From positions 1-28,801 of the IMG/VR virus record IMGVR_UViG_3300046697_000085: DNA of 28,801 nt; one strand, given 5' to 3'. The notes under the pieces are model-generated. The model saw only the letters and a list, made by a program, of their open reading frames with translations, was not told where the DNA came from and searched no databases. Made by a program: the position numbers and the translations under genes. Shown here one piece after another: positions 6,972 to 23,160 of the stretch. Source of the stretch: a virus. Within the stretch, counting starts at the first letter, position 1. Every line of letters begins with the position of its first letter.

Positions 6972-9044
6972 TTACGCCGCCGAGCCAAAGCCGGTAGACG
7001 CCGAAGCCTCTCCAGTAAGCTCGTTGGGTTCTGTTACTTTTTCGAAACCAACTCGTAGGGCGTGTCTTGCGGCCTGAGCGATATTATTAGCATCGTCGGC
7101 TTGTTCTTTGGCCGCCGCTTTCTGCGCGATCAAAGCTTGCTGTTGCTGGAACTTCTGCTGGTTGAGTCCGCCCATGCTCTGCTGTTGATGTCTCTGCATA
7201 TCTTGCTGAGTCATTGGGACGATAACATCATTCAAGTTCTTCCAGTCTGAAGATTCAAACCACATTCTTACGACCTCGTTCACGTCTACCTTCTTTCCTT
7301 CGATGGAAAGCTGTTCGACGATTGCGGGGTTGGACAGGAATTGCGTTAGCATAGGCAATCCCTGGGCCATGTTCCTTCGGGTCTGCATCTTGGACCCGGC
7401 CAGGATCGAGAACTTGACTTTGGCGTTCAGGATGTCCACCAGGTCGCCACCCTGCGTCAAATACTCATGTTTGAGTTCTTGGGACATGATGTAGTCTAGC
7501 TGCGACAAAGGCAACATAGTGTAATTCATTTCCTGCATATCGTACAGGAACGGAACGATAACCTGGTTGGCAAGCTTGTCCACGGCCTCGGAGATTACGT
7601 TTGAAGCTCCTTGCAGCAGCCCTTGGGCCCCGGCAGACGACCGAGCAATGTTTGAGTGACCGCTGGACCCAGCAATACCTTGTCCACTCATGGGGCTGTT
7701 ACCCGAAACGGAGTCTACTCGGCCTTGGGATGCCATCAGAATTTGCTGCGCTTCTACAACGGGATCGCCAAACTTGAGAACAGCCAGGTCGTCTTTGTTA
7801 TCAACCTCAATCATCTTGCTGGGACTGATGCGAACGCTTTGCGTTGGTATGCTCTTGCCCCGAACCCGGACCAGAGGAGCATTCAGCTTCATGTTGGCCT
7901 GATTCAATAGCAGGTTTGTGGTGCCGGTTTGCAGGCGCTGCTCTGTGCCAATTGTGCGGCCCAGACCCATAGACCAGAAAGCACCAGGCACATCCCACCA
8001 ACCTATGGACAGGAACGGGATTCTGCCGTAGATGTTCGTGTCGTTGTAGATAACCAGTTTCTTTTGGACAACAACGATGTAGGTTTTATTATCCCACCGC
8101 TCCAAAACCTCTAGGGGTTTTTGGAATGGATCGGCAGTGGTTTCTTCCCAACGAGGTTCGGCCCTGGCGTCCCACAAGGGGTTGCGTCCACCGTCTTCCG
8201 AGACGTTGGCCTCGACAGGTTCCTGCGGGGGAAGGAATAACTCAAGCAGCTTTTCTCTCGACGGAATGGTATATCCGTCTCGTTCGCGCAGCTTGTCGAT
8301 GTCGTCGAACGTCATGTAACGCCGACGAATAACGTACTTTGCCTTGCGAACGTCCGGCACGTTTAGTCCCGGGTCTACCAAGACTTCCCGCAGATTAACG
8401 ATATGCTCAAAGGTGGGTCGGTCTACGACCTCTTCTGTGACTTCTTCTTCAAGCTCGTCGTCGGTAATACTGGTGTCCGGGGCTCCGGGAATTGTGCTTT
8501 TGATTACAACCGCAGGGCTCTTTCTCTTCAAAACCTTGCGTTCACGAGTAAACTTTTCCCACCCTTCTTGGAACATTGCTGTTCCGAAGAGCAGGAAGTT
8601 CATTACACCCAACCGCAGTTCTTCCCTGAAGTTAATGTCGTCCAGTTGAAACGCAAGCAAAGCGCTGGTAGCCCGAGCGCACTGTGCAGTCGTGCCCGGT
8701 CTTTCCTGCGCTATAAATGGAGGATTTTCGTAAAACAATCCGGCAAGAATCTGGGGATTTATTCCGTTGACGGCAGTAGCCACCGTAAAGAAATTTACGG
8801 ACGCGGCTTCGATCTGGGTACCTGGCCAATAGTTTGGCGAGTAGAGCGAGGAATAAAGGTCTCTGCTAGATTCCCATGAAGTTACGAACGCCCGACGATT
8901 TGCCTCTTGCTCGGCCCGCATAGTGTCCTGAAGAACTAAGCGCAAACCAGGATCGTCTTCCCATACTTGCGCGGACAAAAAGGCTTTGGCCTCTTCGGGC
9001 TTTATGGCCTCATACGGGTTAAGGACGGGTTCGGGAAGAATCAT
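6972..9044 (-). CDS. Portal protein, 690 aa
   Basis: This large protein has portal-type architecture of podovirus-like phages. The N-terminal half is mixed alpha/beta with DLYSSLYSPNYWPGTQIEAASVNFFT and a 'lower clip' region. A central segment FLSIGWWDVPGAFWSMGLGRTIG precedes a QRLQTGTTNLLLNQANMKLNAP helix like the portal stem. The C-terminal part is Gln-rich and coiled (about 600-665). It is placed between the terminase side and the scaffold/capsid. It forms the ring through which DNA enters the head. Start ATG with GAGGATATAA. Confidence 0.85.
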   Translation of the reverse strand: MILPEPVLNPYEAIKPEEAKAFLSAQVWEDDPGLRLVLQDTMRAEQEANRRAFVTSWESSRDLYSSLYSPNYWPGTQIEAASVNFFTVATAVNGINPQILAGLFYENPPFIAQERPGTTAQCARATSALLAFQLDDINFREELRLGVMNFLLFGTAMFQEGWEKFTRERKVLKRKSPAVVIKSTIPGAPDTSITDDELEEEVTEEVVDRPTFEHIVNLREVLVDPGLNVPDVRKAKYVIRRRYMTFDDIDKLRERDGYTIPSREKLLELFLPPQEPVEANVSEDGGRNPLWDARAEPRWEETTADPFQKPLEVLERWDNKTYIVVVQKKLVIYNDTNIYGRIPFLSIGWWDVPGAFWSMGLGRTIGTEQRLQTGTTNLLLNQANMKLNAPLVRVRGKSIPTQSVRISPSKMIEVDNKDDLAVLKFGDPVVEAQQILMASQGRVDSVSGNSPMSGQGIAGSSGHSNIARSSAGAQGLLQGASNVISEAVDKLANQVIVPFLYDMQEMNYTMLPLSQLDYIMSQELKHEYLTQGGDLVDILNAKVKFSILAGSKMQTRRNMAQGLPMLTQFLSNPAIVEQLSIEGKKVDVNEVVRMWFESSDWKNLNDVIVPMTQQDMQRHQQQSMGGLNQQKFQQQQALIAQKAAAKEQADDANNIAQAARHALRVGFEKVTEPNELTGEASASTGFGSAA

Positions 9045-9132
9045 TTATATCCTCTGATTTCGGTACGGAAGACCAACACTCTTTATGTGGAAATTCTAAA
9101 ACAAGAAGCGTTACCGACGCCGCTTTGTCCAT
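9019..9132 (-). CDS. Possible leader ORF upstream of portal, 37 aa
   Basis: The frame begins at the ATG inside repeat copy 6 (MDKAASVTLLVLEFPHKE) and ends 26 bases inside the portal gene. No clear ribosome binding site is seen, so it may be chance. It is listed because the same arrangement (ATG of the repeat opening a short frame) is well supported at 2769-2891. Confidence 0.25.
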   Translation of the reverse strand: MDKAASVTLLVLEFPHKECWSSVPKSEDINDSSRTRP

Positions 9133-9141
9133 TACCCGGAC
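9127..9141 (-). repeat. 15-mer hairpin repeat, copy 6
   Basis: GTCCATTACCCGGAC, three bases after the stop codon of the 94-aa gene. Confidence 0.9.
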
Positions 9142-9144
9142 TAA

Positions 9145-9429
9145 TTAGTAGGGCTTTGTCCGAACATCAGGAACCACGAACCCGTCCTTCAAATCGACAG
9201 ATACCGGGCAAGAAACCGAGGTTCCGGCGGCGGAGGACTGTCCGACTTTGAAGTCCGAAGCTTTGATGTCGTTGTTAACAATCTGCGTTGGAGATTGTTT
9301 GACAAGTTGACCCTCGCCCGAGGAAGAACCTTCGGCCCCGGTTGGGCCTACGGCAGAATAGTCAGACGGCTTGGAATCACGTGGATTTTCGAGATTGCCG
9401 CCGAGCGAAATGAGAGTTCCAACAGCCAT
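9145..9429 (-). CDS. Hypothetical protein, 94 aa
   Basis: The ATG at 9427-9429 is chosen because AAGAGG precedes it and a longer frame would overlap the upstream gene deeply. The sequence is Gly/Ser-rich, polar and probably flexible (AVGPTGAEGSSSGEGQ), without recognisable domain. It lies between the terminase and the portal, where small head or connector proteins are common. Confidence 0.65.
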   Translation of the reverse strand: MAVGTLISLGGNLENPRDSKPSDYSAVGPTGAEGSSSGEGQLVKQSPTQIVNNDIKASDFKVGQSSAAGTSVSCPVSVDLKDGFVVPDVRTKPY

Positions 9430-9434
9430 GATGA

Positions 9435-9803
9435 TTAACCTCTTGATGTAGGCGCGAAGCCTGCGGGTTGGTTTAGATTTTGTTGTTTCGTCGGGGAAGA
9501 CGTTCCCCACATTGATTGTGGTGTGAGAGAAGGTGGAAAGTTTTGGGGGTATGTTGGCCTGGCGTTCGGACCTGGAACAGGAGTTATCCAACCGTTTGGC
9601 CTATCGACTCTTACTATAGGCTGAAAAGTAATCCCAAACAGTTCGTAGGTTCCGTTGTTGACCACGTCAGAAGCGTTCTGTGGCATCTTGCTGAGAAACC
9701 TTCGGGCCGAAGGGGCCGTCCAGCGGCTGGGGGTTGAAGCGTCCGCCGTATGCTCGGCTTGGACTAATCCCTCGTCATCCAGAATTTCTACGTGAATTTT
9801 CAT
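9435..9803 (-). CDS. Hypothetical protein, 122 aa
   Basis: The start is taken at 9803, where ATGA overlaps the stop of the upstream gene and AAAGGGAAAG precedes it. The N-terminal part is a small alpha/beta region (KIHVEILDDEGLVQAEH). The C-terminal half is Pro/Asn/Gln-rich and probably disordered. No family recognised. Confidence 0.65.
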   Translation of the reverse strand: MKIHVEILDDEGLVQAEHTADASTPSRWTAPSARRFLSKMPQNASDVVNNGTYELFGITFQPIVRVDRPNGWITPVPGPNARPTYPQNFPPSLTPQSMWGTSSPTKQQNLNQPAGFAPTSRG

Positions 9804-9985
9804 TGCTTTCCCTTTACAGCTTGGTATTTGGTCAACAACTCGGTAAACAGTTTTTGAACCGTACAGGAAAAAGCAAACTCTCGGTTGTATCCCCTGCGCC
9901 ACTTTCTAACCTCAGCGCGTAAAGATCGGTTTTCCCAACCAAGGCAAACCGCGAGCCAGAAAGACAAGGCGAAAAGCAACAACAT
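9800..9985 (-). CDS. Membrane-anchored small protein, 61 aa
   Basis: MLLLFALSFWLAVCLGW forms one N-terminal membrane segment, followed by a basic, helical cytoplasm- or periplasm-facing part (NRSLRAEVRKWRRGYNREF). The start at 9985 is preferred because ATAGGAGACAAT precedes it; an earlier ATG at 10003 overlaps the terminase end. Topology is that of small i-spanins or tail accessory proteins, but the length is short for a spanin. Confidence 0.65.
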   Translation of the reverse strand: MLLLFALSFWLAVCLGWENRSLRAEVRKWRRGYNREFAFSCTVQKLFTELLTKYQAVKGKQ

Positions 9986-9993
9986 ATTGTCTC

Positions 9994-12162
9994 CTATCCC
10001 CACATTCCAGCACCCAGGATATTGTTCATCCCCGAGGGAACTCCACTGGTTTCCGGTTCTGACGAGGATGAGAAGAAGTCAGTGGGCTCGGGCGTCGGAC
10101 CGTCAATCGGAACCAAAGTTCCGTCTGCTGCATAGGTCCACCGGGTTGGGCCCGTTTGCTGAATAGGAACCATCTGGCCATCGTCTCCCAAGTAATACCC
10201 ACCCCGGGAGTTAGGCCGATAATTTTCGTCGAACACCTCGCCCCAGCCTTGCCGGTCTATGCTGAAGAACATATCCGTGTTATTTTCGACTATGGCTTGG
10301 GTGGCCCGGGGGGCGTATCGAAGCTGATAAGCCAGGCAGTCTGGTATATCCTCGTGGTGATGGCTTGTCTGGCACTTTTCGAACTCTGTATAAAGAATCT
10401 CTATTCGAAGGGGGTCCATACAAGCATTGAGGAAGAACCACTGTCCGTTTACCATCCACGGATACAACTGCCCGATTCGAAGTTTCTTAGCGTCGTTCTG
10501 GTTGTCTACCGGAATCCATTCAATGTGGGCACACAATTCCATGATATAGGGGTCACCTGTTTTGGCGGCCTCCGTTAGAATTGTATATTCCATGTAGCGG
10601 ACACCCGGGGAGTCCTCAATTCCGATGATGAAAGGTCGAGTTTCTTGCGCCAGACGGATAACAGCTTGGGGTCCCGTTAGATTGTTGAAACGATCCCTCA
10701 CAACTTTGAGTGTGCTTCCGACCGTCTTCTTTCTTCGGGTCTTGGTTCCGTTCGGCATTATTATTTCAACTGGTTTACCGTTTGGTCCGATTTCGTCAGC
10801 TTCGCTCCACATAACAGCGGAGCCCGTGGTGTAGTCCAATCCCTTCTTCTGCTTGCCCCCGTTAAAGTCCCACATATTTGACACGGGGCCGCTGCGGGGA
10901 AGCATTTGATAGGGGATAGTACACCGAAGGAGGAGGGGCCTATCGAACGTCACGCTTCCGGCGGATCGGGGGTTCTGATTTCTCTGTCCTTCGAAAGACT
11001 TCTCATCCTTGGCGAGATCGTTCATCAGCCAGGAGAAGGACATGATGTGGGGAAGAAGCAGAATACAACCCGCTTCGCCCGCTTCTTGGTAGGTTACTTT
11101 TCGTCCCTCAGACTGAAGACGTTCTACAATCTCGGGTTTGATCGTGATCGCTCGGCCCACCAAGATGTTCATATTGGTGGTTTTGTTGTGGACAAAGAAC
11201 CAGCCGGGTCCCTCTCGACGTTCCACTTCTCCGAAGTTCTCGTTCTTCTCTAGGAGTTCGCCGTAATGGTCTTCGTCCGCATACCGAGTGCCTATGTAAT
11301 CTACATAATATCCTCCGGGAATAATCAACTTCTCGGCGAGGAACAATTTATGGGAAATGCTGGAACACTGCTCGGATGACTCTGTGTTCACGTCCGAGAC
11401 GGCGTCATCCATTTTAATAAGTTCGTAGTGCCAACCGGACTTGGTTTTGCCTACGGACGATCCGACGACGGTCGGCTCCTTGCGCCTGATCTTCTTTGCT
11501 TTCCACACCGGGCAGGTAAAGACTTCCATCTTTTCCCGCTGACCCTTGACCTTAACCCCGTTTTCATCTTCTTCGGAGGCAACATCAACGAAGCAGAATT
11601 CGGGGAAGAAGAGTTCCATCAACGTGGGCTCGTCTTCGCTGCGTTGAAAATGGCCCTTAACCTCGTCCACGAAACCTTTGGACAGACTGACTTCCGCCGT
11701 CAGATAAAGAATACGAATGGAAGGGAAATTGAGAATCCATTGGACAGTGTCTACGTGGTCGATTGTGCTCTTAAACCCAGACCTGGGCCAGAGGAGGAGC
11801 CTAGTCTTGACTGTGGACTGCTGGTTAAGGGGTTTGGATTTGTCTTTCTTGACGAACAGGTCGCAGACTGTTTGATAGTATTCCTCGGTGATGAGGTTTT
11901 CCGAAAGGGGTTTAGTTCCTTTTTCGCTGTGCGCGTTCGTTTCCCAGGTAAAATACCGAGCTAACCACAGAAGGTCTGCCTCACTTCTACGCCTGACTTC
12001 TCTCCCCAATTTGGAATTTGGAATGTGATCCGAGCCCAACTTGGCCATGTTGGCCAGGTCCTGTCTCCCGTCTTGGAGGCAGGAGTAGAGGGCGTCGTTG
12101 GGTATTAGTTCGTAGCCGCCGTATTGGTCGTAAAGTGCGTCTACCTGCTCGGAGATCGACAT
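9994..12162 (-). CDS. terL: Terminase large subunit
   Basis: A 722-residue DNA-packaging motor with ATPase and nuclease. The ATPase domain has a Walker A-type P-loop WPRSGFKST (residues 125-133, Lys131) after LLL, a Walker B LIKMDD (248-253), and the motif III-like YVDYIGTRY at about 290. The nuclease half (about 450-660) has AVMWSEADE, FIIGIEDSP and HHEDIPDCLAYQ, supplying the acidic residues of the RNase H-like fold. The C-terminal 60 residues are Gly/Pro/Ser-rich. It pumps DNA through the portal and cuts it. No small subunit is recognised in this window. Confidence 0.93.
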   Translation of the reverse strand: MSISEQVDALYDQYGGYELIPNDALYSCLQDGRQDLANMAKLGSDHIPNSKLGREVRRRSEADLLWLARYFTWETNAHSEKGTKPLSENLITEEYYQTVCDLFVKKDKSKPLNQQSTVKTRLLLWPRSGFKSTIDHVDTVQWILNFPSIRILYLTAEVSLSKGFVDEVKGHFQRSEDEPTLMELFFPEFCFVDVASEEDENGVKVKGQREKMEVFTCPVWKAKKIRRKEPTVVGSSVGKTKSGWHYELIKMDDAVSDVNTESSEQCSSISHKLFLAEKLIIPGGYYVDYIGTRYADEDHYGELLEKNENFGEVERREGPGWFFVHNKTTNMNILVGRAITIKPEIVERLQSEGRKVTYQEAGEAGCILLLPHIMSFSWLMNDLAKDEKSFEGQRNQNPRSAGSVTFDRPLLLRCTIPYQMLPRSGPVSNMWDFNGGKQKKGLDYTTGSAVMWSEADEIGPNGKPVEIIMPNGTKTRRKKTVGSTLKVVRDRFNNLTGPQAVIRLAQETRPFIIGIEDSPGVRYMEYTILTEAAKTGDPYIMELCAHIEWIPVDNQNDAKKLRIGQLYPWMVNGQWFFLNACMDPLRIEILYTEFEKCQTSHHHEDIPDCLAYQLRYAPRATQAIVENNTDMFFSIDRQGWGEVFDENYRPNSRGGYYLGDDGQMVPIQQTGPTRWTYAADGTLVPIDGPTPEPTDFFSSSSEPETSGVPSGMNNILGAGMWG

Positions 12163-17252: not shown

Positions 17253-17326
17253 TGGAGCGGACAGTCGGATTTCAACCGACATGACAAACTTGGAAGGATT
17301 GCATCCTAGCATTGGATGATGCCCGC
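17253..17326 (-). tRNA. tRNA-Gly(TCC), altered elbow
   Basis: Seven-pair acceptor stem, encoded TCCA end. The anticodon loop CTTCCAA reads GGA. D-loop AATGCTA and T-loop TTGAAAT give C19-G56 instead of G19-C56. One mismatch in the anticodon stem. Confidence 0.85.
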
Positions 17327-17331
17327 AAACT

Positions 17332-17405
17332 TGGTAGGCGACCACGGATTCGCGCCGTGATTATTCCTTAATCGGAGGAATTTCCTGCTATTGGAAGAGT
17401 CGCCC
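17332..17405 (-). tRNA. tRNA-Ile(GAT)-like with aberrant anticodon loop
   Basis: Complete cloverleaf with CCA. The anticodon loop CCGATTA has C33 and T37 instead of T33 and a purine. D-loop AATAGCA lacks GG, and T-loop CGCGAAT lacks T54-T55, though G19-C56 can form. Functional status is less sure than for its neighbours. Confidence 0.65.
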
Positions 17406-17410
17406 ATAAA

Positions 17411-17484
17411 TGGTGCCCGGTGAGGGAGTCAAACCCCCGTCGCTATCGTGTAAAGGTAGCAGTCTATCGTTAACCTAACCAGGC
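17411..17484 (-). tRNA. tRNA-Val(TAC), altered elbow
   Basis: Acceptor GCCTGGT/ACCGGGC, CCA encoded, anticodon loop TTTACAC (codon GTA). D-loop AACGATA with T-loop TTTGACT predicts A19-U56. Confidence 0.82.
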
Positions 17485-17571
17485 AAAACTTTAAGCTTCA
17501 AGATCACGGCTCTCAAGAAGCGTCCTCGGGATTACGACCGTCTGCTGGGCATCAAAGTACCCGAGGTAACA
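17485..17571 (-). other. Gap A in tRNA array: structured, not a tRNA
   Basis: This 87-base gap has no CCA or cloverleaf. A CCTCGGG/CCCGAGG stem (seven pairs, 29-base interior) and a GCTTC/GAAGC stem can form on the minus strand. On the plus strand one frame reads without stop through the gap (FKITALKKRPRDYDRLLGIK), protein-like but without start. It may be a remnant of a gene or of a tRNA. Confidence 0.35.
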
Positions 17572-17646
17572 TGGGGCGCGTAGCCGGAATCGAGCCGACA
17601 TCCTGACCTTCGGAGGGTCGAGTTCTGTCCTTTGAACTATACGCGC
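17572..17646 (-). tRNA. tRNA-Arg(CCG)
   Basis: Acceptor GCGCGTA/TACGCGC, CCCA end. Loop CTCCGAA (codon CGG). D-loop AAAGGACA and T-loop CTCGATT keep G19-C56, though T54 is C. Confidence 0.88.
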
Positions 17647-17651
17647 AAACT

Positions 17652-17752
17652 TTGTGCGAGCCGGATTTCTACCGGAAAATCTCTACTGACAGGCTGAAGA
17701 GGTCTTTCGACCTAAGTCAATATCCCGTTCGCCCGGATTTCAGATTCTCGCA
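17652..17752 (-). ncRNA. tRNA-like RNA of unresolved type (gap B)
   Basis: About 100 bases closed by TGCGAG/CTCGCA, without CCA. It contains a TCCGG-TAGAAAT-CCGG arm that looks like a T-arm with a non-standard loop. A TTGAC/GTCAG stem encloses 25 bases including a GAAA-capped hairpin. Read in normal order it would be a tRNA with an insert in the anticodon loop. Read as permuted, ATCCG-GGCGAAC-GGGAT would be the T-arm and the CCGGTAGA segment the D-loop. Neither fits cleanly. Confidence 0.4.
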
Positions 17753-17755
17753 ACT

Positions 17756-17830
17756 TGGGAGTCCCGTCCGGACACGATCCGGAATCTTTGCTTTAGGGGA
17801 GCATTGCTCTGTCCTTTGAGCTACGGGACC
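17756..17830 (-). tRNA. tRNA-Arg(CCT), C33
   Basis: Acceptor GGTCCCG/CGGGACT with CCCA. The anticodon loop CCCCTAA reads AGG but has C33. D-loop AAAGGACA, T-loop ATCGTGT: G19-C56 is kept, T54 lost. Confidence 0.83.
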
Positions 17831-17838
17831 AAAACTTA

Positions 17839-17913
17839 TGGAGAGCGCACGGAGAATTCAACTCCGATTCTTGGTTTAGAGGACCAGTGCCTTCTGCATT
17901 AGACGATGCGCTC
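17839..17913 (-). tRNA. tRNA-Arg(TCT), C33, altered elbow
   Basis: Acceptor GAGCGCA/TGCGCTC with TCCA. Loop CCTCTAA (codon AGA) has C33. D-loop AATGCAGA with T-loop TTGAATT predicts C19-G56. Confidence 0.83.
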
Positions 17914-17914
17914 T

Positions 17915-17989
17915 TGGTGGGGCGTCGGGGTAACCATCCCCGTTCTTCCGGTTAAAGGCCGGTTGCTTCAGCATTAAAGCTTACACCCC
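17915..17989 (-). tRNA. tRNA-Lys(TTT), C33, altered elbow
   Basis: Acceptor GGGGTGT/ACGCCCC with ACCA. Loop CCTTTAA (codon AAA) has C33. The D-loop contains ATGCTG and the T-loop is ATGGTTA, predicting C19-G56. A canonical Lys(CTT) follows in the array. Confidence 0.8.
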
Positions 17990-17994
17990 TAAAC

Positions 17995-18071
17995 TGGTGG
18001 GTCGCCAGGAACTCGAATCCTGCTCTGTCGGGTAAGAGCCGACTGCTTCAAACCATCAAAGCTTGCAACCC
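17995..18071 (-). tRNA. tRNA-Lys(CTT)
   Basis: Fully canonical: acceptor GGGTTGC/GCGACCC, loop CTCTTAC (codon AAG), D-loop with GG, T-loop TTCGAGT, ACCA encoded. Confidence 0.93.
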
Positions 18072-18072
18072 G

Positions 18073-18167
18073 TGGAACCGGAAGAGGGGCCTGAGCCCTC
18101 GCGCACCAGCAATCTACTGGCAACTGCCGGGGTTATAAATCCCAACGCCTCACCCGAGGATTCCGGC
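18073..18167 (-). tRNA. Class II-like tRNA, anticodon uncertain (TAT?)
   Basis: Acceptor GCCGGAA/TTCCGGT with TCCA, T-arm GAGGG-CTCAGGC-CCCTC. The anticodon arm is best read as TGGGA-TTTATAA-CCCCG, giving TAT (Ile, codon ATA), with a mismatch closing the loop. The 27-base variable region holds a stem GCCAG/CTGGT. Leu, Ser and Tyr normally have such arms, so anticodon and class disagree. The D-arm is reduced to CCTC-GGGT-GAGG. Confidence 0.55.
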
Positions 18168-18173
18168 AAAACT

Positions 18174-18246
18174 TGGTGCCGCGTGAGGGACTTTAACCCT
18201 ACGCCAAACGCTTTATGAGGGCGTTGTCCAAACTCTGGTGCGCGGC
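18174..18246 (-). tRNA. tRNA-Met(CAT), elongator-like, reduced D-arm
   Basis: Acceptor GCCGCGC/ACGCGGC (one mismatch) with ACCA, loop CTCATAA. Only 73 bases: the D-arm is short (CCA-GAGTT-TGG). T-loop TTAAAGT has A56, and the GT in the D region would allow U19-A56. Could also be an Ile(CAU) tRNA after modification. Confidence 0.7.
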
Positions 18247-18251
18247 GAAAC

Positions 18252-18321
18252 TGGCAGGGAATCGGGGAGTCTAACCCCGCTAAAAGGTTTTGGAGACCGA
18301 TGTGATCTCGGATCATTCCCT
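18252..18321 (-). tRNA. tRNA-Trp(CCA), short D region
   Basis: Acceptor AGGGAAT/ATTCCCT with GCCA, loop CTCCAAA (codon TGG), T-arm CGGGG-TTAGACT-CCCCG with A56. At 70 bases it lacks a normal D-arm; GATC-CGA-GATC is the only hairpin possible there. Confidence 0.7.
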
Positions 18322-18327
18322 GTAAAA

Positions 18328-18402
18328 TGGTAGCCCCGTGCGGACTCAAACCGCAATAACTAGTTTCGAAGACTAGTGCCCTGTTCTTTGGACGACGGGG
18401 CC
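18328..18402 (-). tRNA. tRNA-Arg(TCG), altered elbow
   Basis: Acceptor GGCCCCG/CGGGGCT with ACCA, loop CTTCGAA (codon CGA). D-loop AAAGAACA and T-loop TTTGAGT predict A19-U56. Compare Arg(CCG), whose D-loop AAAGGACA differs at exactly that base. Confidence 0.87.
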
Positions 18403-18408
18403 GTGAAA

Positions 18409-18484
18409 TGGTGTGCCCGGTCGGACTTCAACCGACGACCTCTTCCTTCGCAGGGAAGCGTTCTATGCGCTGAACTACGGGTAC
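18409..18484 (-). tRNA. tRNA-Arg(GCG), altered elbow, overlapped by endonuclease ORF
   Basis: Loop CTGCGAA (codon CGC), CCA encoded, one acceptor mismatch. D-loop AGCGCATA with T-loop TTGAAGT predicts C19-G56. The upstream endonuclease reading frame continues through its first 57 bases. Confidence 0.85.
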
Positions 18485-19294
18485 AAAAACTTTCAGAAGT
18501 TCCACAAAATGTTGCACTTGTTCATTAGTTTTGATGAATCTGTCTTTTCCGAGAGGCCACCGATAACGAACGACTCGTATTCCAACCCCGGTAAGTAGTC
18601 GATCTCTTTCTTGGTCCGAATCTTTTCTGTCGTCGTGTTGGCGGCCATCTACTTCCAAATCCAACAACAAAGAAGGAAAGTAGAAATCTAAGAAGTAGTT
18701 GCCCTTCTTGTCTGAGCCAAGTTCCTTCTTTCTGACCTTGAATTCTTGAACGTACTCTTGGTCCGTTTGGCTCCCCAGACGCTCTCTCCAGAACCTCTCG
18801 GCGAAAGACTCTTTACCTTTCGGACGAGTTTGCCATCCGGGGTGCTTCCCTACCGAGGAAGCAAGAATTTTCTTTACGAACTCTGGGTCCTGCCATTTCA
18901 CGATACCAGAACAAGCAATTGAACAATACCTTTGCTTTCGCTTGGGTCTCTCAATAACGGACCCGCAGTTTTCGCAAGGTCGAGGAAGATTATTGGTCTT
19001 GGATCGTAAAGACAGACTGAGTTTGTCTTTCGACTCCTCGCTTCTCTTCTCCCCAGGAACCCCTATCTTACTGTTTCCGTAGCACCGAGAATCACAAAAT
19101 TTTTGGTCGTATGAACAAAGTACCCCGCACCACTCACAAGGACTATCGGGAATCTTCTTTCTTCGTTCGCTAGTACAAGCCGCACTACAATAGAACTCGG
19201 TCTGTCCTGCTTTTGTTGCAAACACATAATGCTTCAGTTGCTTGAGAAATTTGCTCTTACAAACGCAGCACTCAAGTTCAATCTTCTTCGGCAT
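18428..19294 (-). CDS. VSR/EDxHD-like homing endonuclease with zinc fingers, 288 aa
   Basis: The N-terminal 135 residues hold repeated Cys pairs (CCVCKSKF, FYCSAAC, CEWCG, FCDSRC, CENCG, YCSIAC), a string of zinc knuckles for DNA binding. The C-terminal catalytic part, LDFYFPSLLLDLEVDGRQHD then DQERDRLLTGVGIRVVRYRW, is the VSR/DUF559-like PD-(D/E)XK fold seen in EDxHD homing enzymes. It lies between tRNA-Pro(TGG) and tRNA-Arg(GCG). No stop occurs before the tRNA: the last 18 codons and the TGA are tRNA sequence. ATG with AGGAAGACACA. Confidence 0.8.
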   Translation of the reverse strand: MPKKIELECCVCKSKFLKQLKHYVFATKAGQTEFYCSAACTSERRKKIPDSPCEWCGVLCSYDQKFCDSRCYGNSKIGVPGEKRSEESKDKLSLSLRSKTNNLPRPCENCGSVIERPKRKQRYCSIACSGIVKWQDPEFVKKILASSVGKHPGWQTRPKGKESFAERFWRERLGSQTDQEYVQEFKVRKKELGSDKKGNYFLDFYFPSLLLDLEVDGRQHDDRKDSDQERDRLLTGVGIRVVRYRWPLGKDRFIKTNEQVQHFVELLKVFVPVVQRIERFPAKEEVVG

Positions 19295-19309
19295 TGTGTC
19301 TTCCTAACA

Positions 19310-19386
19310 TGGTCGGGAGGGTGAGAATCGAACTCACTTGATAGCTCGCTTCCAGAGCGAGAGGCTAACCTTTTGCCCACCCCCCG
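19310..19386 (-). tRNA. tRNA-Pro(TGG), C33
   Basis: Acceptor CGGGGGG/CCTCCCG with ACCA. Loop TCTGGAA (codon CCA) has C33. D-loop with GG and T-loop TTCGATT are normal. Confidence 0.88.
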
Positions 19387-19393
19387 ATAAATT

Positions 19394-19470
19394 TGGTCGG
19401 GACCCGGCGAGTCGAACGCCGCTCGTCCTGTATCCGAAACAGGTGCCTGAAACCGCTAGGCTAGACCCCG
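19394..19470 (-). tRNA. tRNA-Pro(CGG)
   Basis: Acceptor CGGGGTC/GGTCCCG with ACCA, loop TTCGGAT (codon CCG), canonical D-loop (GG) and T-loop TTCGACT. Confidence 0.92.
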
Positions 19471-19471
19471 A

Positions 19472-19547
19472 TGGTGCGGATTCCCAGAATCGAACTGGAC
19501 TGAACGGCTTTTCAAACCGCCGCAAAGACCACTCTTGCTCAATCCGC
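19472..19547 (-). tRNA. tRNA-Phe(GAA)
   Basis: Acceptor GCGGATT/AATCCGC with ACCA, loop TTGAAAA (codon TTC/TTT), D-loop with GG, T-loop TTCGATT. A T-run from the preceding segment abuts its 5' end. Confidence 0.92.
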
Positions 19548-19629
19548 AAAAAGTCGGGGTACTCTCACCCCCTGTCAAACCACTCGCCGAACGTTACGAC
19601 GCTGCCGCAGGTTTCGCGGTTCTCAGCTT
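19548..19629 (-). other. Gap D in tRNA array: structured, ends like a terminator
   Basis: No cloverleaf or CCA. Minus-strand stems: CCGC-GAAACCT-GCGG, AGCGT-CGTA-ACGTT, and a GGGGT/ACCCC stem followed by GACTTTTT, which resembles an intrinsic terminator touching tRNA-Phe. A GGCGAGTGGTTTGA segment looks like a class II D-loop, so a decayed tRNA-Ser or -Leu is possible. Confidence 0.35.
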
Positions 19630-19705
19630 TGGTGGAGACGGAGGGATTGCAACCCTCAAAACTACGGTGCAGACGTAGTATGATCGCGTGTTTCATCACG
19701 CCCCC
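19630..19705 (-). tRNA. tRNA-Ala(TGC), C33, altered elbow
   Basis: Acceptor GGGGGCG/CGTCTCC with ACCA. Loop TCTGCAC (codon GCA) has C33. T-loop TTGCAAT has G56, and the long D-loop AAACACGCGAT offers C19. Confidence 0.82.
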
Positions 19706-19706
19706 A

Positions 19707-19800
19707 CATTTCAAACTTACGCCGAGGTCCTATCCTTTAGATGATGGTGCGGAACTCACCGCATATTCCAGCGGGAGTCGAACCCGCGTTTCTCGGCTGC
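19707..19800 (-). ncRNA. Circularly permuted tRNA-like gene
   Basis: On the minus strand a consensus T-arm (GCGGG-TTCGACT-CCCGC) comes first and a consensus D-arm segment (TCATCTAAAGGATAGGAC) comes after it. The outer ends pair as an anticodon stem (TCGGC with GCCGA). The region between pairs as an acceptor (CCGCACCA with TGG..TGCGG, an AATA bulge), closed by a short loop. Rejoined, the order acceptor, D-arm, anticodon stem, five-base variable loop and T-arm is normal. The flanks GTAAG and AAGCA share AAG and would give loop GTAAGCA. No CCA is encoded. Confidence 0.55.
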
Positions 19801-19801
19801 T

Positions 19802-19877
19802 TGGGGCGGGGTAGGAGGTTCGAACTCCTGTTACTGGGGTCACAGTCCAGCGCCTAAGCCACTCGGCCAACCTCGCC
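19802..19877 (-). tRNA. tRNA-His(GTG)
   Basis: The 5' end has the extra G(-1) opposite C73 that marks tRNA-His. Loop CTGTGAC (codon CAC/CAT), T-loop TTCGAAC, D-loop with GG, CCA encoded. Confidence 0.92.
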
Positions 19878-19893
19878 ATAAACTTTCCGAGCT

Positions 19894-19992
19894 TTAGGTC
19901 AACCGGCTGGCCAGCAAAAGGGCTATGCCCACGATCAACTTTTCACTGCATCCTATTTCTAGGAGGTACTCGGTGTAGGACTTGCTGTCCAT
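19894..19992 (-). CDS. Possible small membrane protein, 32 aa, start in repeat
   Basis: The ATG within repeat copy 11 opens MDSKSYTEYLLEIGCSEKLI followed by VGIALLLASRLT, with a C-terminal hydrophobic segment. The frame extends upstream without stop (ATPAWFYQTKWRDFSTGL...) into tRNA-Thr(TGT), so a longer product with a non-ATG start cannot be excluded. The ribosome binding site is weak. Confidence 0.4.
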   Translation of the reverse strand: MDSKSYTEYLLEIGCSEKLIVGIALLLASRLT

Positions 19993-20001
19993 TACCTGGA
20001 C
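19987..20001 (-). repeat. 15-mer hairpin repeat, copy 11
   Basis: GTCCATTACCTGGAC, preceded by CTTGCT and followed by GAA. The flanks are shared with copy 14. Confidence 0.88.
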
Positions 20002-20084
20002 GAATCGGAAACAGGGTTTACTCTGAAGCCCCGTTGAAAAGTCGCGCCACTTCGTTTGGTAGAACCAGGCAGGTGTCGCCTGTA

Positions 20085-20159
20085 TGGAGCGCCCGGACAG
20101 ATTCAAACTGCCTTCTCCCGGGTACAGGCCGGGCGAATCTTCTGGTATTCTTCAGGCGC
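20085..20159 (-). tRNA. tRNA-Thr(TGT), C33, altered elbow
   Basis: Acceptor GCGCCTG/CGGGCGC with TCCA. Loop CCTGTAC (codon ACA) has C33. D-loop ACCAGAAG with T-loop TTTGAAT predicts A19-U56. First gene after promoter P2. Confidence 0.85.
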
Positions 20160-20176
20160 AAATCTCAACTAAAGAC

Positions 20177-20206
20177 ATTGTACCACAACCGTCTTCAGCT
20201 TGTCAA
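20177..20206 (-). promoter_or_regulatory. Promoter P2 (sigma70) inside the tRNA array
   Basis: Minus strand TTGACA (20201-20206), 18 bp, TGG-TACAAT (20177-20182). The endonuclease stop codon TGA lies inside the -35 hexamer. Confidence 0.88.
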
Positions 20207-20964
20207 CTAAAATCTTTTGGAGCCGGAAGGGAGGATTTAACTCCCGCTTTTCCCGTACCGGGGGAAGGTTCTGACAACTGAACTATTCCGGCTTTCTTGC
20301 GTCGAACTCCGCCAACATCTCGTCCTCGCCCTCTGTTTAACCCCATATATGTGGAAGTTAAAGAATGGCAATTTGGGCAGAGGATAGTCAAATTCTCTGG
20401 TCTACAGTTTCTGAAGTCTCCGTCGATGTGCTCAACCTGGATCGGAATGTGTCCGCTGGTTGGATTAACTTCACACCACCCACAGCGAGAACATTTCTTT
20501 CCATAAGTCCTGTAAAGGTAAACCCGTACTTGTTGACACAAAGCCCCGGCGGGTGTCAATCCCGATTCTTCCCCGAGGAGCCAAGCCTCTATGTACTTTT
20601 CTTCCTCGTACAAACGATGACAGACTTTGCTGCAAAAAAGTCGATTATCAGTTTCTCTTCCGCACCTTTTGCAGACTCTTAGAGGGGACCGACGCTTACC
20701 AGTAAGATTAAAAATTGCAGCACACCGTTGGGAACAAAACTTACTTTTAGTATCATCCCCACAATTAAGACAAGGACGAATATCCGTTTCTAGAGAGTTG
20801 GACAAACATCTTCGGGAGCAGTAGCAGAAACCTTCTCCCCTCTTGGCACTCTTCATTGCGTGGTGCTTGAGGCGCATAAAATCAACGTCACAATAATCAC
20901 AGTAAAGATGGACGGGTTCTCGACTTTTCGCTAGATCGAAATCTTCCTGAGAAACCAATCTCAT
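20203..20964 (-). CDS. HNH homing endonuclease with zinc knuckles, 253 aa
   Basis: N-terminal Cys-pair repeats (YCDYCDVDF, FCYCSRRC, CLNCGDD, FCSQRC, CKRCGRE, FCSKVC) lead into an HNH core: KCSRCGWC, then IQVEHIDGDFRNCRPENLTILCPNCHSL, giving His-Asn-His plus the zinc site. It lies between tRNA-Thr(CGT) and tRNA-Thr(GGT). The frame runs through the whole of Thr(GGT): about 25 codons are tRNA sequence. It stops in the -35 box of P2. ATG with TTAGGAGTAAGC. Likely a mobile gene that homes into tRNA sequence. Confidence 0.85.
   Translation of the reverse strand: MRLVSQEDFDLAKSREPVHLYCDYCDVDFMRLKHHAMKSAKRGEGFCYCSRRCLSNSLETDIRPCLNCGDDTKSKFCSQRCAAIFNLTGKRRSPLRVCKRCGRETDNRLFCSKVCHRLYEEEKYIEAWLLGEESGLTPAGALCQQVRVYLYRTYGKKCSRCGWCEVNPTSGHIPIQVEHIDGDFRNCRPENLTILCPNCHSLTSTYMGLNRGRGRDVGGVRRKKAGIVQLSEPSPGTGKAGVKSSLPAPKDFS
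20218..20292 (-). tRNA. tRNA-Thr(GGT), C33, altered elbow, inside endonuclease ORF
   Basis: Acceptor GCCGGAA/TTCCGGC with TCCA. Loop CCGGTAC (codon ACC) has C33. D-loop AGTTGTCA with T-loop TTAAATC predicts U19-A56. Wholly contained in the HNH reading frame. Confidence 0.87.
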
Positions 20965-20978
20965 GCTTACTCCTAACT

Positions 20979-21052
20979 TGGAGCCCGGTCGGGGAATTCA
21001 ACCCCGGTCTTCGCGGTACGAAGGCGAAAGTCTAGCACTGACCTAACCAGGC
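20979..21052 (-). tRNA. tRNA-Thr(CGT), altered elbow
   Basis: Acceptor GCCTGGT/ACCGGGC with TCCA, loop TTCGTAC (codon ACG). D-loop AGTGCTA with T-loop TTGAATT predicts C19-G56. Confidence 0.85.
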
Positions 21053-21060
21053 TTGCGGTT

Positions 21061-21099
21061 CATATATGGGTCCTAAAGTCGGTTAACGACCCATATATG
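21061..21099. repeat. Perfect 12-bp inverted repeat
   Basis: CATATATGGGTC (21061-21072) and GACCCATATATG (21088-21099) around a 15-base loop. Each arm also contains the self-complementary CATATATG. There is no T-run, so it is not a simple terminator. It lies ten bases from repeat copy 12. Confidence 0.85.
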
Positions 21100-21108
21100 T
21101 AACATGTT

Positions 21109-21123
21109 GTCCATTACCTGGAC
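21109..21123 (-). repeat. 15-mer hairpin repeat, copy 12
   Basis: GTCCATTACCTGGAC beside the 12-bp inverted repeat; TGTCC...GGACG flanks. Confidence 0.88.
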
Positions 21124-21131
21124 GAAACATT

Positions 21132-21216
21132 GCCGCTTGAGGGCCGGATGCTTCCCCGGCTTTTACAACCCCCGATGTAGGCCGGGGGCAACCTCGGAGC
21201 GTACGTCTCCTGCGGC
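21132..21216 (-). ncRNA. Three-arm structured RNA in tRNA array (gap E)
   Basis: 85 bases closed by GCCGC/GCGGC. On the minus strand three hairpins follow: GGAG-ACGTACG-CTCC, CCCCCG-GCCTACAT-CGGGGG and GCCGG-GGAAGCAT-CCGGC, the last two inside GAGG/CCTC. It has the size and outline of a cloverleaf but eight-base loops, no T-loop consensus and no CCA. Identity unknown. Confidence 0.45.
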
Positions 21217-21220
21217 AAAA

Positions 21221-21295
21221 TGGAGCGAAGGACCAGACTCGAACTGGCGTCTACGGACTGGCAATCCGAGGTACTGGCCGCTGTACGACCTTCGC
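21221..21295 (-). tRNA. tRNA-Gly(GCC)
   Basis: Acceptor GCGAAGG/CCTTCGC with TCCA, loop TTGCCAG (codon GGC), D-loop with GG, T-loop TTCGAGT. Confidence 0.93.
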
Positions 21296-21299
21296 AATG

Positions 21300-21374
21300 T
21301 GGCACCCGAGGAGCGAGTTGAACGCTGCGTCTGGGGCTTCAAAGACCCCGGTCCTACCGTTGAACGACTCGGGC
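21300..21374 (-). tRNA. tRNA-Gln(TTG)
   Basis: Acceptor GCCCGAG/CTCGGGT with GCCA, loop CTTTGAA (codon CAA), D-loop AACGGTA, T-loop TTCAACT. Confidence 0.93.
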
Positions 21375-21379
21375 AAAAC

Positions 21380-21456
21380 TGGCTGGACCTACAGGTCTCG
21401 AACCTGTCTTAGTCTTCGTTCAGAGCGAAGTGCCATACCTGCTAGGCGAAGGTCCA
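21380..21456 (-). tRNA. tRNA-Gln(CTG)
   Basis: Acceptor TGGACCT/AGGTCCA with GCCA, loop CTCTGAA (codon CAG), D-loop with GG, T-loop TTCGAGA. Confidence 0.93.
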
Positions 21457-21462
21457 TTAAAA

Positions 21463-21593
21463 TTTGGCGGTCCTCAATAAAACCCAGCCTCAAAGCGCGT
21501 AAGTCCCGCTACTCTCTTTGAGGTCTTGCTGCTAGGTTTTACCCGTTGGTGTTTAGCCACAGTGTTTAGAGTCGCAGCCCGTTACGACTATTT
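21463..21593 (-). other. Gap F in tRNA array: long hairpin region
   Basis: 131 bases without a tRNA. On the minus strand CCTCAAAG pairs with CTTTGAGG, and outside it TAAAACCTAG with CTGGGTTTTA, a long interrupted hairpin at about 21477-21542. GTCGTAACGGGCTGCGAC at the other end is a separate hairpin. A lone CGCCA at 21463-21467 may be the 3' end of a lost tRNA. Confidence 0.4.
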
Positions 21594-21668
21594 TGGCTCC
21601 ACAGGCGCGAGTCGAACGCGCATCTTACTCGTTAACAGCGAGGCATAATACCATTATACGACCGTGGA
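21594..21668 (-). tRNA. tRNA-Asn(GTT)
   Basis: Acceptor TCCACGG/CTGTGGA with GCCA, loop CTGTTAA (codon AAC/AAT), D-loop with GG, T-loop TTCGACT. Confidence 0.93.
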
Positions 21669-21674
21669 ACAACT

Positions 21675-21755
21675 TGGCGTGGGTGACCGGAATCGAACCG
21701 GCGACATCACCTGATTGAAAGTCAGGGCACATTCACCAACAATGTGAACACCCAC
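21675..21755 (-). tRNA. tRNA-Glu(TTC)
   Basis: Acceptor GTGGGTG/CACCCAC with GCCA, loop CTTTCAA (codon GAA), long D-loop with GG, T-loop TTCGATT. Confidence 0.92.
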
Positions 21756-21759
21756 AAAA

Positions 21760-21837
21760 TGGTAGGGTAGCTCGGGTTCGAACCGAGGCGTAACCACGGT
21801 GAGAACGTGGTGGCTTAACCAACTTGCCAACTACCCC
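21760..21837 (-). tRNA. tRNA-Glu(CTC)
   Basis: Acceptor GGGGTAG/CTACCCT with ACCA, loop TTCTCAC (codon GAG), D-loop with GG, T-loop TTCGAAC. Confidence 0.92.
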
Positions 21838-21842
21838 ATAAA

Positions 21843-21918
21843 TGGCGCGACGAAGGGGATTTGAACCCCTGTAAACTTGATCGACAATCAAGGACATTTG
21901 CCGCTATGCTACCGTCGC
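21843..21918 (-). tRNA. tRNA-Asp(GTC)
   Basis: Acceptor GCGACGG/TCGTCGC with GCCA, loop TTGTCGA (codon GAC/GAT), D-loop with GG, T-loop TTCAAAT. Confidence 0.93.
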
Positions 21919-21922
21919 AAAA

Positions 21923-21998
21923 TGGTTGCCAGGGGAGGACTTGAACCTCCGGTCTCCAACTTATGAGGATGGCGAGATGGCCGCTTCTCTACCCGGCG
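21923..21998 (-). tRNA. Initiator tRNA-fMet(CAT)
   Basis: The end pair is C1-A72 (CGCCGGG against CCTGGCA), the mismatch that marks bacterial initiator tRNA, and the D-stem has A11-T24. Loop CTCATAA, T-loop TTCAAGT, ACCA. The three G-C pairs of a typical initiator anticodon stem are not fully present (CCATC/GTTGG). First gene after P3. Confidence 0.85.
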
Positions 21999-22007
21999 TC
22001 AAACTTC

Positions 22008-22013
22008 ATTGTA
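22008..22013 (-). promoter_or_regulatory. Promoter P3 (extended -10)
   Basis: TGTGGTACAATG as in P1 and P2, but no TTGACA upstream. Repeat copy 13 (22019-22033) occupies the spacer between -10 and the expected -35, the position of an operator. Confidence 0.65.
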
Positions 22014-22018
22014 CCACA

Positions 22019-22033
22019 GTCCGGATAATGGAC
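22019..22033 (-). repeat. 15-mer hairpin repeat, copy 13 (inverted), in promoter spacer
   Basis: GTCCGGATAATGGAC on the plus strand, five bases upstream of the -10 box of P3. Confidence 0.9.
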
Positions 22034-22045
22034 TTGTGGAAAACT

Positions 22046-22074
22046 GCACAATAACATCGAAAATGTTACCGTGC
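22046..22074 (-). terminator. Probable intrinsic terminator in tRNA array
   Basis: Minus strand: GCAC...GTGC enclosing AACAT/ATGTT, then AGTTTTCC. It ends the tRNA unit transcribed from P4, immediately before P3. Confidence 0.55.
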
Positions 22075-22079
22075 GAAAC

Positions 22080-22163
22080 TGGTGCACGCAGCAAGAATCG
22101 AACTTGCTATCCCCGAAGAGGGCTCTTTTACAGAGAGCCTGGCTACCTTAGCGCGTTACGTGC
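22080..22163 (-). tRNA. tRNA-Tyr(GTA)
   Basis: Acceptor GCACGTA/TGCGTGC with ACCA, anticodon stem GCTCT/AGAGC, loop CTGTAAA (codon TAC/TAT), long variable arm, T-loop TTCGATT. Confidence 0.9.
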
Positions 22164-22164
22164 G

Positions 22165-22251
22165 TGGCGGAAAGCGAAGGTAACGATCCCTCATCCCTTG
22201 CGGGAGCCCCGGTTTTCAGGACCGGCTGTCTCACCATCGACGGCGCTTTCC
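22165..22251 (-). tRNA. tRNA-Ser(TGA), C33
   Basis: Acceptor GGAAAGC/GCTTTCC with GCCA. Loop CCTGAAA (codon TCA) has C33. Variable arm TCCC-GCAA-GGGA. T-loop ATCGTTA lacks T54, D-loop has GG. Confidence 0.87.
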
Positions 22252-22388
22252 AAAACTTAACTCCCCGACTTCTACGCGACACCTTGCTGAGCTTGTCAGG
22301 GCCAGCCGGGCTCGGGGAACCGGATCATATTCCAACCCTTTGACAAGGGAATAAGGAACAGCGGACGACCGGCGGCACACGTCAAACA
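22252..22388 (-). other. Gap G in tRNA array: two structured blocks
   Basis: 137 bases without cloverleaf. TCCCCGA/TCGGGGA closes a 57-base block (22261-22317) that contains CTGA-CAAGC-TCAG. A second block (about 22321-22380) holds CCCTT-GTCA-AAGGG inside ATTCC/GGAAT. No CCA. Identity unknown. Confidence 0.35.
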
Positions 22389-22476
22389 TGGCGGACGGGG
22401 TGAGATTTCAACTCACGACACCCGAAGGTGTACTGGTTTTCGGGACCAGCGCGATAAAGCACTCTGCCACCCGTCC
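22389..22476 (-). tRNA. tRNA-Ser(CGA), C33, altered elbow
   Basis: Acceptor GGACGGG/CCCGTCC with GCCA. Loop CCCGAAA (codon TCG) has C33. Variable arm ACACC-TTCG-GGTGT. D-loop with GTGC and T-loop TTGAAAT predict C19-G56. Confidence 0.87.
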
Positions 22477-22477
22477 G

Positions 22478-22563
22478 TGGAGGAAAGCAGTGAACACGAT
22501 CCACAGTCCCGAAGGACCCAACTGGTTTCCGGCCAGTGCCCAGCCCCGCCGGGTTTACTTTCC
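22478..22563 (-). tRNA. tRNA-Ser(GGA), C33
   Basis: Acceptor GGAAAGT/GCTTTCC with TCCA. Loop CCGGAAA (codon TCC) has C33. Variable arm GGTCC-TTCG-GGACT. T-loop ATCGTGT, the same as Arg(CCT). Confidence 0.86.
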
Positions 22564-22566
22564 ATT

Positions 22567-22591
22567 AAGGAAAAACTACCTACTTTTCCTT
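22567..22591. repeat. Inverted repeat AAGGAAAA/TTTTCCTT
   Basis: A perfect 8-bp inverted repeat with a nine-base loop between two Ser tRNAs; possible processing or termination hairpin. Confidence 0.6.
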
Positions 22592-22607
22592 GCACAAAAC
22601 TTGACAT

Positions 22608-22693
22608 TGGCGGATCGTGCTTGAGTCGAACAAGCTCAACCTTTCGGTTGTACAGTTTAGCAAACTGCTCCGTTACCGTCCCGGCCACGATCC
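22608..22693 (-). tRNA. tRNA-Ser(GCT)
   Basis: Acceptor GGATCGT/ACGATCC with GCCA, loop TTGCTAA (codon AGC/AGT), variable arm CAACC-GAAA-GGTTG, T-loop TTCGACT; canonical. Confidence 0.92.
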
Positions 22694-22822
22694 GTGAAAC
22701 TTACGTCCCTCTTGTTTCAGAGTTGAAGGAGTTGACAATCTCTGACCAACTTACCGACAGTTTGTCTTCGGCAGGGCTACTTTGCTTTATGGTCATCAGT
22801 GGGAGTTGACACCCACAACATT
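22694..22822 (-). other. Gap J in tRNA array: tRNA-like pieces
   Basis: 129 bases. A GTGGG-TGTCAACT-CCCAC arm resembles a T-arm with one extra loop base, a D-loop-like AGTTGGTCAGAG follows about 55 bases later, and TGACCA/TGGTCA can pair between them. The T-before-D order recalls the permuted locus at 19707-19800, but the other stems do not fit. GAGTTGACA occurs twice on the plus strand. Confidence 0.35.
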
Positions 22823-22905
22823 TGGTGCCGATGAGGGGGATCGAACCCCTACCCCGAAGGACTAGGTTTTGAATCTAGCGTGGCTTCCAATTACACCACA
22901 TCGGC
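22823..22905 (-). tRNA. tRNA-Leu(CAA)
   Basis: Acceptor GCCGATG/CATCGGC with ACCA, loop TTCAAAA (codon TTG), D-loop with GG, variable arm with TTCG, T-loop TTCGATC. Confidence 0.91.
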
Positions 22906-22911
22906 AAAACT

Positions 22912-22994
22912 TGGTGCAGGTAGAGGGAGTCGAACCCCCACCCCTAGAGACTGGTTTCTAAAACCAGCGCGGCTGCCAATTACGCCATACCTGC
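22912..22994 (-). tRNA. tRNA-Leu(TAG)
   Basis: Acceptor GCAGGTA/TACCTGC with ACCA, anticodon stem CTGGT/ACCAG, loop TTTAGAA (codon CTA), long variable arm, T-loop TTCGACT. Confidence 0.92.
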
Positions 22995-23006
22995 ACAACT
23001 TAAACT

Positions 23007-23082
23007 TGGAGGTCGAGATCGGAATCGAACCGACGATTAACAGTTTTGCAGACTGTCGCTTTACCGTCTTAGCTACTCGACC
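23007..23082 (-). tRNA. tRNA-Cys(GCA)
   Basis: Acceptor GGTCGAG/CTCGACC with TCCA, loop CTGCAAA (codon TGC/TGT), D-loop with GG, T-loop TTCGATT. Confidence 0.93.
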
Positions 23083-23083
23083 G

Positions 23084-23160
23084 TGGTGCGGGCGACCGGA
23101 TTCGAGCCGGTAGAACCGAGGGTTTAAGCCTCAGATGTCTTCCTGTTGCATCACGCCCGC
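23084..23160 (-). tRNA. tRNA with anticodon TAA (Leu codon TTA) but short variable loop
   Basis: Acceptor GCGGGCG/CGCCCGC with ACCA, anticodon stem TGAGG/CCTCG, loop CTTAAAC, D-stem ATG/CAT, T-arm ACCGG-CTCGAAT-CCGGT. The variable loop is about five bases, so this is a class I body with a Leu anticodon. Confidence 0.8.

Follow-up and report, generated by a model that had tools for sequence, protein, structure and literature searches.

Background

In nearly every known tRNA the corner of the molecule is capped by the base pair G19-C56, which is usually treated as fixed in cytosolic tRNA and docks RNase P, the ribosomal L1 stalk, L5 and T-boxes. Elbow positions were reportedly also dealt with in older work on the selection of suppressor tRNAs. 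The docking surface is the exposed face of the 19-56 pair (PMC4810234), and single, uncompensated changes of C56 cost one protein-only RNase P most of its activity (PMC5039416). A laboratory tRNA carrying G19C/C56G is reported to be aminoacylated like the wild type, whereas disruption of the pair abolishes activity (PMC3602588). In bacteria G19-C56 is regarded as conserved, and the sequence accepted by TruB is 53-GUUYRANYC-61 (PMC7912444).

The tRNAs described here resemble canonical elongator tRNAs (RF00005) in their cloverleaf, loop sizes, encoded CCA, G18, U54/A58 and, in most genes, U55, and most of those in the window (the whole analyzed stretch of 28,801 nucleotides) exceed the Rfam cut-off. 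They differ in that about a third of the genes in the phage lineage have C-G, A-U or U-A at 19-56, and some have A18/G55, A54/U58 or A8/U14. The engineered G19C/C56G tRNA, for which normal aminoacylation was reported, has the identical compensated swap, but it is a single laboratory mutant, whereas the phage swaps are natural, affect many isoacceptors and include all pair types (PMC3602588). Natural departures from G18G19 and TPsiC likewise occur in mitochondrial type II tRNAs and tRNA-Pyl (PMC7609411); these lose D-loop/T-loop motifs or pairing, whereas the phage tRNAs keep the pair in rewritten form. Defence-escaping phage tRNAs also come in arrays with sequences unlike those of the host, but their known changes lie in the anticodon or variable loop rather than in the elbow (PMC10264068, PMC11555353, PMC13096335). 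Our necessarily incomplete search of open-access papers yielded no description of a natural C19-G56 tRNA or of 19-56 covariation, in agreement with the sequence-only reading, which knew of no described tRNA set like this one.

The tRNA array and its swapped elbows

Terminase, portal and capsid genes lie on the minus strand of the window, a viral contig of 28.8 kb. Its tRNA array (17253..23160, minus strand) holds at least 34 genes, every one with an encoded CCA, which cover 18-19 amino acids. Within this interval ARAGORN reports 28 tRNA genes and misses six good ones (Ile GAT, Arg TCT, Lys TTT, Phe GAA, Thr TGT and Ser TGA), four of which have altered elbows; annotation programs thus overlook phage tRNAs of this kind. 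These six are added by a parser of our own, which bases its score on the stems, the CCA and a small number of conserved bases and does not depend on GG in the D-loop or TTC in the T-loop. With the score set at 20, it had no match in more than 300 kb of sequence lying outside the related-phage arrays and in Tunturi_3. The Rfam tRNA model RF00005 has 26 matches of at least 29 bits in the array, which reach its gathering score. Between the array genes there are several degenerate stretches that resemble tRNAs. As further context outside the elbow feature, an ORF with a DUF559 match (18428..19294, minus strand) overlaps tRNA-Arg(GCG), and an HNH endonuclease ORF (20203..20964, minus strand) overlaps tRNA-Thr(GGT).

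All 11 definite swaps claimed in the sequence-only reading were recovered at the named genes by the stem-only parse, and all four Watson-Crick combinations occur at 19-56 as it had stated. In the following, genes are on the minus strand and loops are given as D-loop / T-loop. C19-G56 is present in seven genes: tRNA-Gly(TCC) (17253..17326; AATGCTA / TTGAAAT), tRNA-Arg(TCT) (17839..17913; AATGCAGA / TTGAATT), tRNA-Lys(TTT) (17915..17989; TAATGCTG / ATGGTTA), which additionally has A8/U14 and A54/U58, tRNA-Arg(GCG) (18409..18484; AGCGCATA / TTGAAGT), tRNA-Ala(TGC) (19630..19705; AACACGCGA / TTGCAAT), tRNA-Thr(CGT) (20979..21052; AGTGCTA / TTGAATT) and tRNA-Ser(CGA) (22389..22476; AGTGCTTTA / TTGAAAT). 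A19-U56 is found in three, namely tRNA-Val(TAC) (17411..17484; AACGATA / TTTGACT), tRNA-Arg(TCG) (18328..18402; AAAGAACA / TTTGAGT) and tRNA-Thr(TGT) (20085..20159; ACCAGAAG / TTTGAAT), the parsed sequence of the last being identical in the relative G003. U19-A56 occurs in one, tRNA-Thr(GGT) (20218..20292; AGTTGTCA / TTAAATC). Arg(TCT), Lys(TTT) and Thr(TGT) are among the genes not found by ARAGORN. The covariance-model check proposed earlier agrees with the parser: the Rfam alignment, printed for the swapped genes Gly TCC, Val TAC, Arg TCG, Arg GCG, Thr GGT and Thr CGT, puts the same bases in the GG/UUC columns. The contrast drawn earlier between Arg(TCG) and Arg(CCG) also holds, as the loops of both match the earlier quotation; tRNA-Arg(CCG) (17572..17646; AAAGGACA / CTCGATT) has the canonical G19-C56 in both the parser and the Rfam alignment. 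Two swaps offered as possible did not survive: the Met(CAT) gene at 21923-21998 is G19-C56, and a convincing Trp gene is absent, the one candidate given by the Rfam model (18255-18321) scoring 21.7 bits, below the gathering score.

Three further genes retain G19-C56 and have other elbow or core changes. tRNA-Ile(GAT) (17332..17405; AATAGCA / CGCGAAT), which ARAGORN does not find, has A18/G55, a second type of swap; tRNA-Arg(CCT) (17756..17830; T-loop ATCGTGT) has A54/U58 in place of U54/A58 in both the parser and the Rfam alignment; and tRNA-Lys(CTT) (17995..18071) has A8/U14 in place of U8/A14. Besides the window Ile(GAT), tRNAs for Pro, Glu, Asn, Gly and His in the relatives have A18/G55. 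Positions 18 and 55 also covary in environmental tRNAs: of 705 whose D-loop has 7 bases, all 35 with G55 have A18, and 649 of the 651 with U55 have G18.

Covariation of positions 19 and 56 in the phage lineage

The lineage was assembled by searches of IMG/VR with the terminase large subunit of the window (9994..12162, minus strand) as query. tRNA arrays are carried by relatives whose terminase is 75% (G002), 55% (G003 and G005) and about 50-53% (G011, G012, G015 and G020) identical to that of the window; the more distant G018 and G022 (40-41%) have only a few tRNAs each. The same parser gave 168 distinct tRNAs from eight related phage contigs after removal of duplicates, and the 159 with an assignable G18 were used for the 19-56 counts. 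These comprise 99 GC, 26 CG, 20 AU and 10 UA pairs and 4 other combinations; 56 of the 159 (~35%) are thus swapped. Covariation in related phages, the absence of which had been named as a possible refutation, is therefore present: 155/159 are Watson-Crick, against a mean of 72 when base 56 is shuffled and 76 when it is shuffled within phages, and none of 20,000 shuffles attained 155, which rejects chance. A register-free pairing test gave 165/168 against 84.7 expected. Three of the four non-pairing tRNAs reflect register choice or belong to the A18/G55 class, leaving Pro TGG of G002. The pair found in a given isoacceptor changes from phage to phage, Thr(GGT) having UA, AU, CG, CG and GC.

It is conceivable that pseudogenes or a wrong D-loop register mimic compensation, as two registers are possible in a few D-loops and degenerate tRNA-like stretches accompany the array genes. 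To this we attach hardly any probability. In a gap-free set of 29 lineage tRNAs, in which the D-loop has 7 bases and the variable loop 4, so that each is 74 bases long and has no register freedom, 29/29 pair at 19-56 (GC 11, AU 10, CG 7, UA 1), whereas 46% pair in shuffles and 10-66% with slid columns; register error is rejected on this ground. The mutual-information test suggested earlier, carried out with correction on this set, gives 19-56 the second rank among 2,701 column pairs; the rest of the top 20 are helix pairs and 15-48 (rank 19), and 18-55 has rank 22. The covariance-model alignment agrees. Stems, anticodons and CCA ends are intact in the swapped genes, which average 0.70 stem mismatches (20 pairs) against 0.82 in canonical ones, all with CCA, so that pseudogene decay is likewise rejected. 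The pattern repeats in independent contigs, by which sequencing error is rejected as well.

Distribution in other viruses

As a control we applied the same parser to 19 INPHARED phage records chosen by tRNA gene similarity (18 regions of other records and one single-tRNA record). Here 254/260 tRNAs are G19-C56, a handful are uncompensated or ambiguous, and no compensated swap occurs among the 260. The difference between 56/159 in the lineage and 0/259 in INPHARED has a Fisher p of 2e-27, which is indicative only, as tRNAs of the same lineage are non-independent. The matches inspected in BLAST searches of INPHARED with the swapped tRNAs were canonical. In an environmental control of 119 virus contigs, picked solely by the canonical D-arm pattern, 717 of ~751 tRNAs are GC at 19-56, and three of the four with A-U share one contig.

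We also scanned IMG/VR with a single common D-arm, TAGCTCARYGxNAGAGC, then read base 56 and removed duplicates. G19 was accompanied by C56 in 163/163, A19 by U56 in 47/61, U19 by A56 in 12/26 and C19 by G56 in 4/9. Twenty-one of the contigs had no terminase match to the lineage, so that unrelated viruses, too, have compensated swaps sporadically; the lineage is a hot spot for them.

Evolution and probable function of the swapped elbow

Pairing is maintained through repeated two-sided changes, while the letters are free. Among orthologues the 19-56 pair differs about as often as stem pairs, at 0.26 versus 0.22 (at least 70% identical), 0.46 versus 0.42 (60-70%) and 0.54 versus 0.53 (50-60%); this comparison is coarse, being pairwise and tree-free, with related pairs counted repeatedly. 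The last T-stem pair, 53-61, differs far less (0.02-0.06 in the two more divergent classes). G-U is absent at 19-56 from the 155 lineage pairs but makes up 7% of stem pairs (p about 1e-5). We consider it rather probable that in this lineage of uncultured tailed phages 19-56 is selected only for strict Watson-Crick pairing and not for G-C. As selection retains a strict Watson-Crick elbow, the swapped tRNAs are probably functional, and as G-C is still the commonest pair (99/155), some preference for the letters remains.

Such a state could be understood if 19-56 acted as a flat stacking cap that supports RNase P, the ribosomal L1 stalk and L5, since any Watson-Crick pair would then serve. This view accords with recognition of the pair by its exposed face (PMC4810234) and with the aminoacylation reported for the engineered G19C/C56G tRNA (PMC3602588). 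During infection the tRNAs would be transcribed, processed by enzymes of the host and then serve in translation. Factors that read the letters of the cellular G19-C56, such as the T-loop consensus of TruB, might matter little for tRNAs needed in a single infection, and with the letters of such low importance compensated changes would build up at the ordinary rate of stem pairs. The pairing-only reading does not account for the contrast between about 35% swapped tRNAs in the lineage and none in the 19 INPHARED records.

The sequence-only reading had proposed selection for a functional elbow that looks different, perhaps one that evades a nuclease or modifying enzyme of the host. Selection for a paired elbow is strongly supported, as the relatives covary, stem mismatches are not in excess and G-U intermediates are absent. 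The proposed escape appears unlikely; here the swaps would keep the phage tRNAs from a tRNase or modifying enzyme of the host for which the letters of G19-C56 or the T-loop consensus are the signal, and the phage tRNAs would replace the destroyed host pool. It would fit with tRNA sets that are nearly complete, four lineage phages covering 17-18 amino acids, and with RNA-repair genes in the lineage, namely RNA ligase PF09414 (G020 and G018), RtcB (G018) and HAD_SAK_2 (G005). Phage tRNAs are also described that evade tRNA-cutting defences via the anticodon loop (PMC10264068) or the variable loop (PMC13096335), and G56 and A56 break the TruB sequence (PMC7912444). However, A19-U56 still fits that sequence, 19-56 changes no faster than the stems, and most tRNAs of each array (~60%) retain G19-C56, so that the whole set would not escape. 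We know of no elbow-reading nuclease. That the compensated 19-56, 18-55 and 54-58 changes across viruses are together an adaptive change of identity against unrecognized elbow-reading host nucleases or modifying enzymes seems distinctly unlikely to us. Among the Pfam families listed for sampled non-structural ORFs of G020, G005 and G018 (for G018 the best 25 of 37), there was no pseudouridine synthase, RNase P, synthetase or tRNA methyltransferase; an elbow enzyme borne by the phages is thus not supported in this sample.

The host tRNAs might themselves be swapped and their genes have been acquired by the phages, which we regard as improbable: the same isoacceptor varies among related phages, orthologous phage tRNAs switch, and bacterial tRNAs are regarded as conserving G19-C56 (PMC7912444). 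Moreover, Tunturi_3, a distant relative with an Acidobacteriota host and a terminase 25% identical, has tRNAs with GG and TTC loops. No relative in a prophage or host came to light when genome contigs were scanned with profiles of the terminase and the portal.

With selection primarily for strict pairing, these phages offer a natural experiment in which the match is retained and not the letters: a natural set of bacterial-style tRNAs with all four Watson-Crick types separates the shape that is needed, a flat pair, from the letters that are read. The elbow letters might also be a site of phage-host conflict. Judging from the TruB sequence, tRNAs with G56 or A56 may lack pseudouridine 55. Base 57 follows the orientation of the pair, being mostly G next to C56 or U56 and A in about half of the tRNAs with G56 or A56.

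Rewiring of tertiary contacts in these tRNAs also involves pairs other than 19-56. In the window Arg(CCT) and Lys(TTT) have A54/U58 in place of U54/A58, and Lys(TTT) and Lys(CTT) have A8/U14 in place of U8/A14 (all at 17756-18071). Comparable swaps occur in the relatives: across the 168 distinct tRNAs of the lineage set, pair 54-58 is AT in 11 and pair 8-14 is AT in 10. The phage contig IMGVR_UViG_3300005288_000001, which has an A18/G55 elbow in about nine of the 27 tRNAs of its tRNA region (7458-11879), may represent a second hot-spot lineage of elbow rewiring; most of these A18/G55 tRNAs additionally show A54/U58, with T-loops reading AGCGTTA or AGCGTAA. A single 211 kb viral contig, IMGVR_UViG_3300037087_000760, yields at least 74 tRNA matches, several of them with A19-U56.

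Within the window's array, good genes are separated at 18072-18325 and 22478-22563 by degenerate tRNA-like stretches, namely a Met-like one (near 18170-18240), a Trp-like one (18255-18321; 21.7 bits) and a Ser(GGA)-like one (22478-22563), which are possibly remnants of tRNA genes. The array also houses a DUF559 ORF (18428-19294) and an HNH endonuclease ORF (20203-20964), which resemble free-standing homing endonucleases in their placement there and in each overlapping a tRNA gene. In the relative G003 a LAGLIDADG-like ORF adjoins an incomplete capsid-gene reading frame (17524-19023 of its sequence, L006), which suggests that this capsid gene is interrupted by an intron or insertion.

The nearest isolated phage, Tunturiibacter phage Tunturi_3 (L045), contains a permuted tmRNA match (38172-38396) and tRNAs with GG and TTC loops, both lacking annotation in its record.
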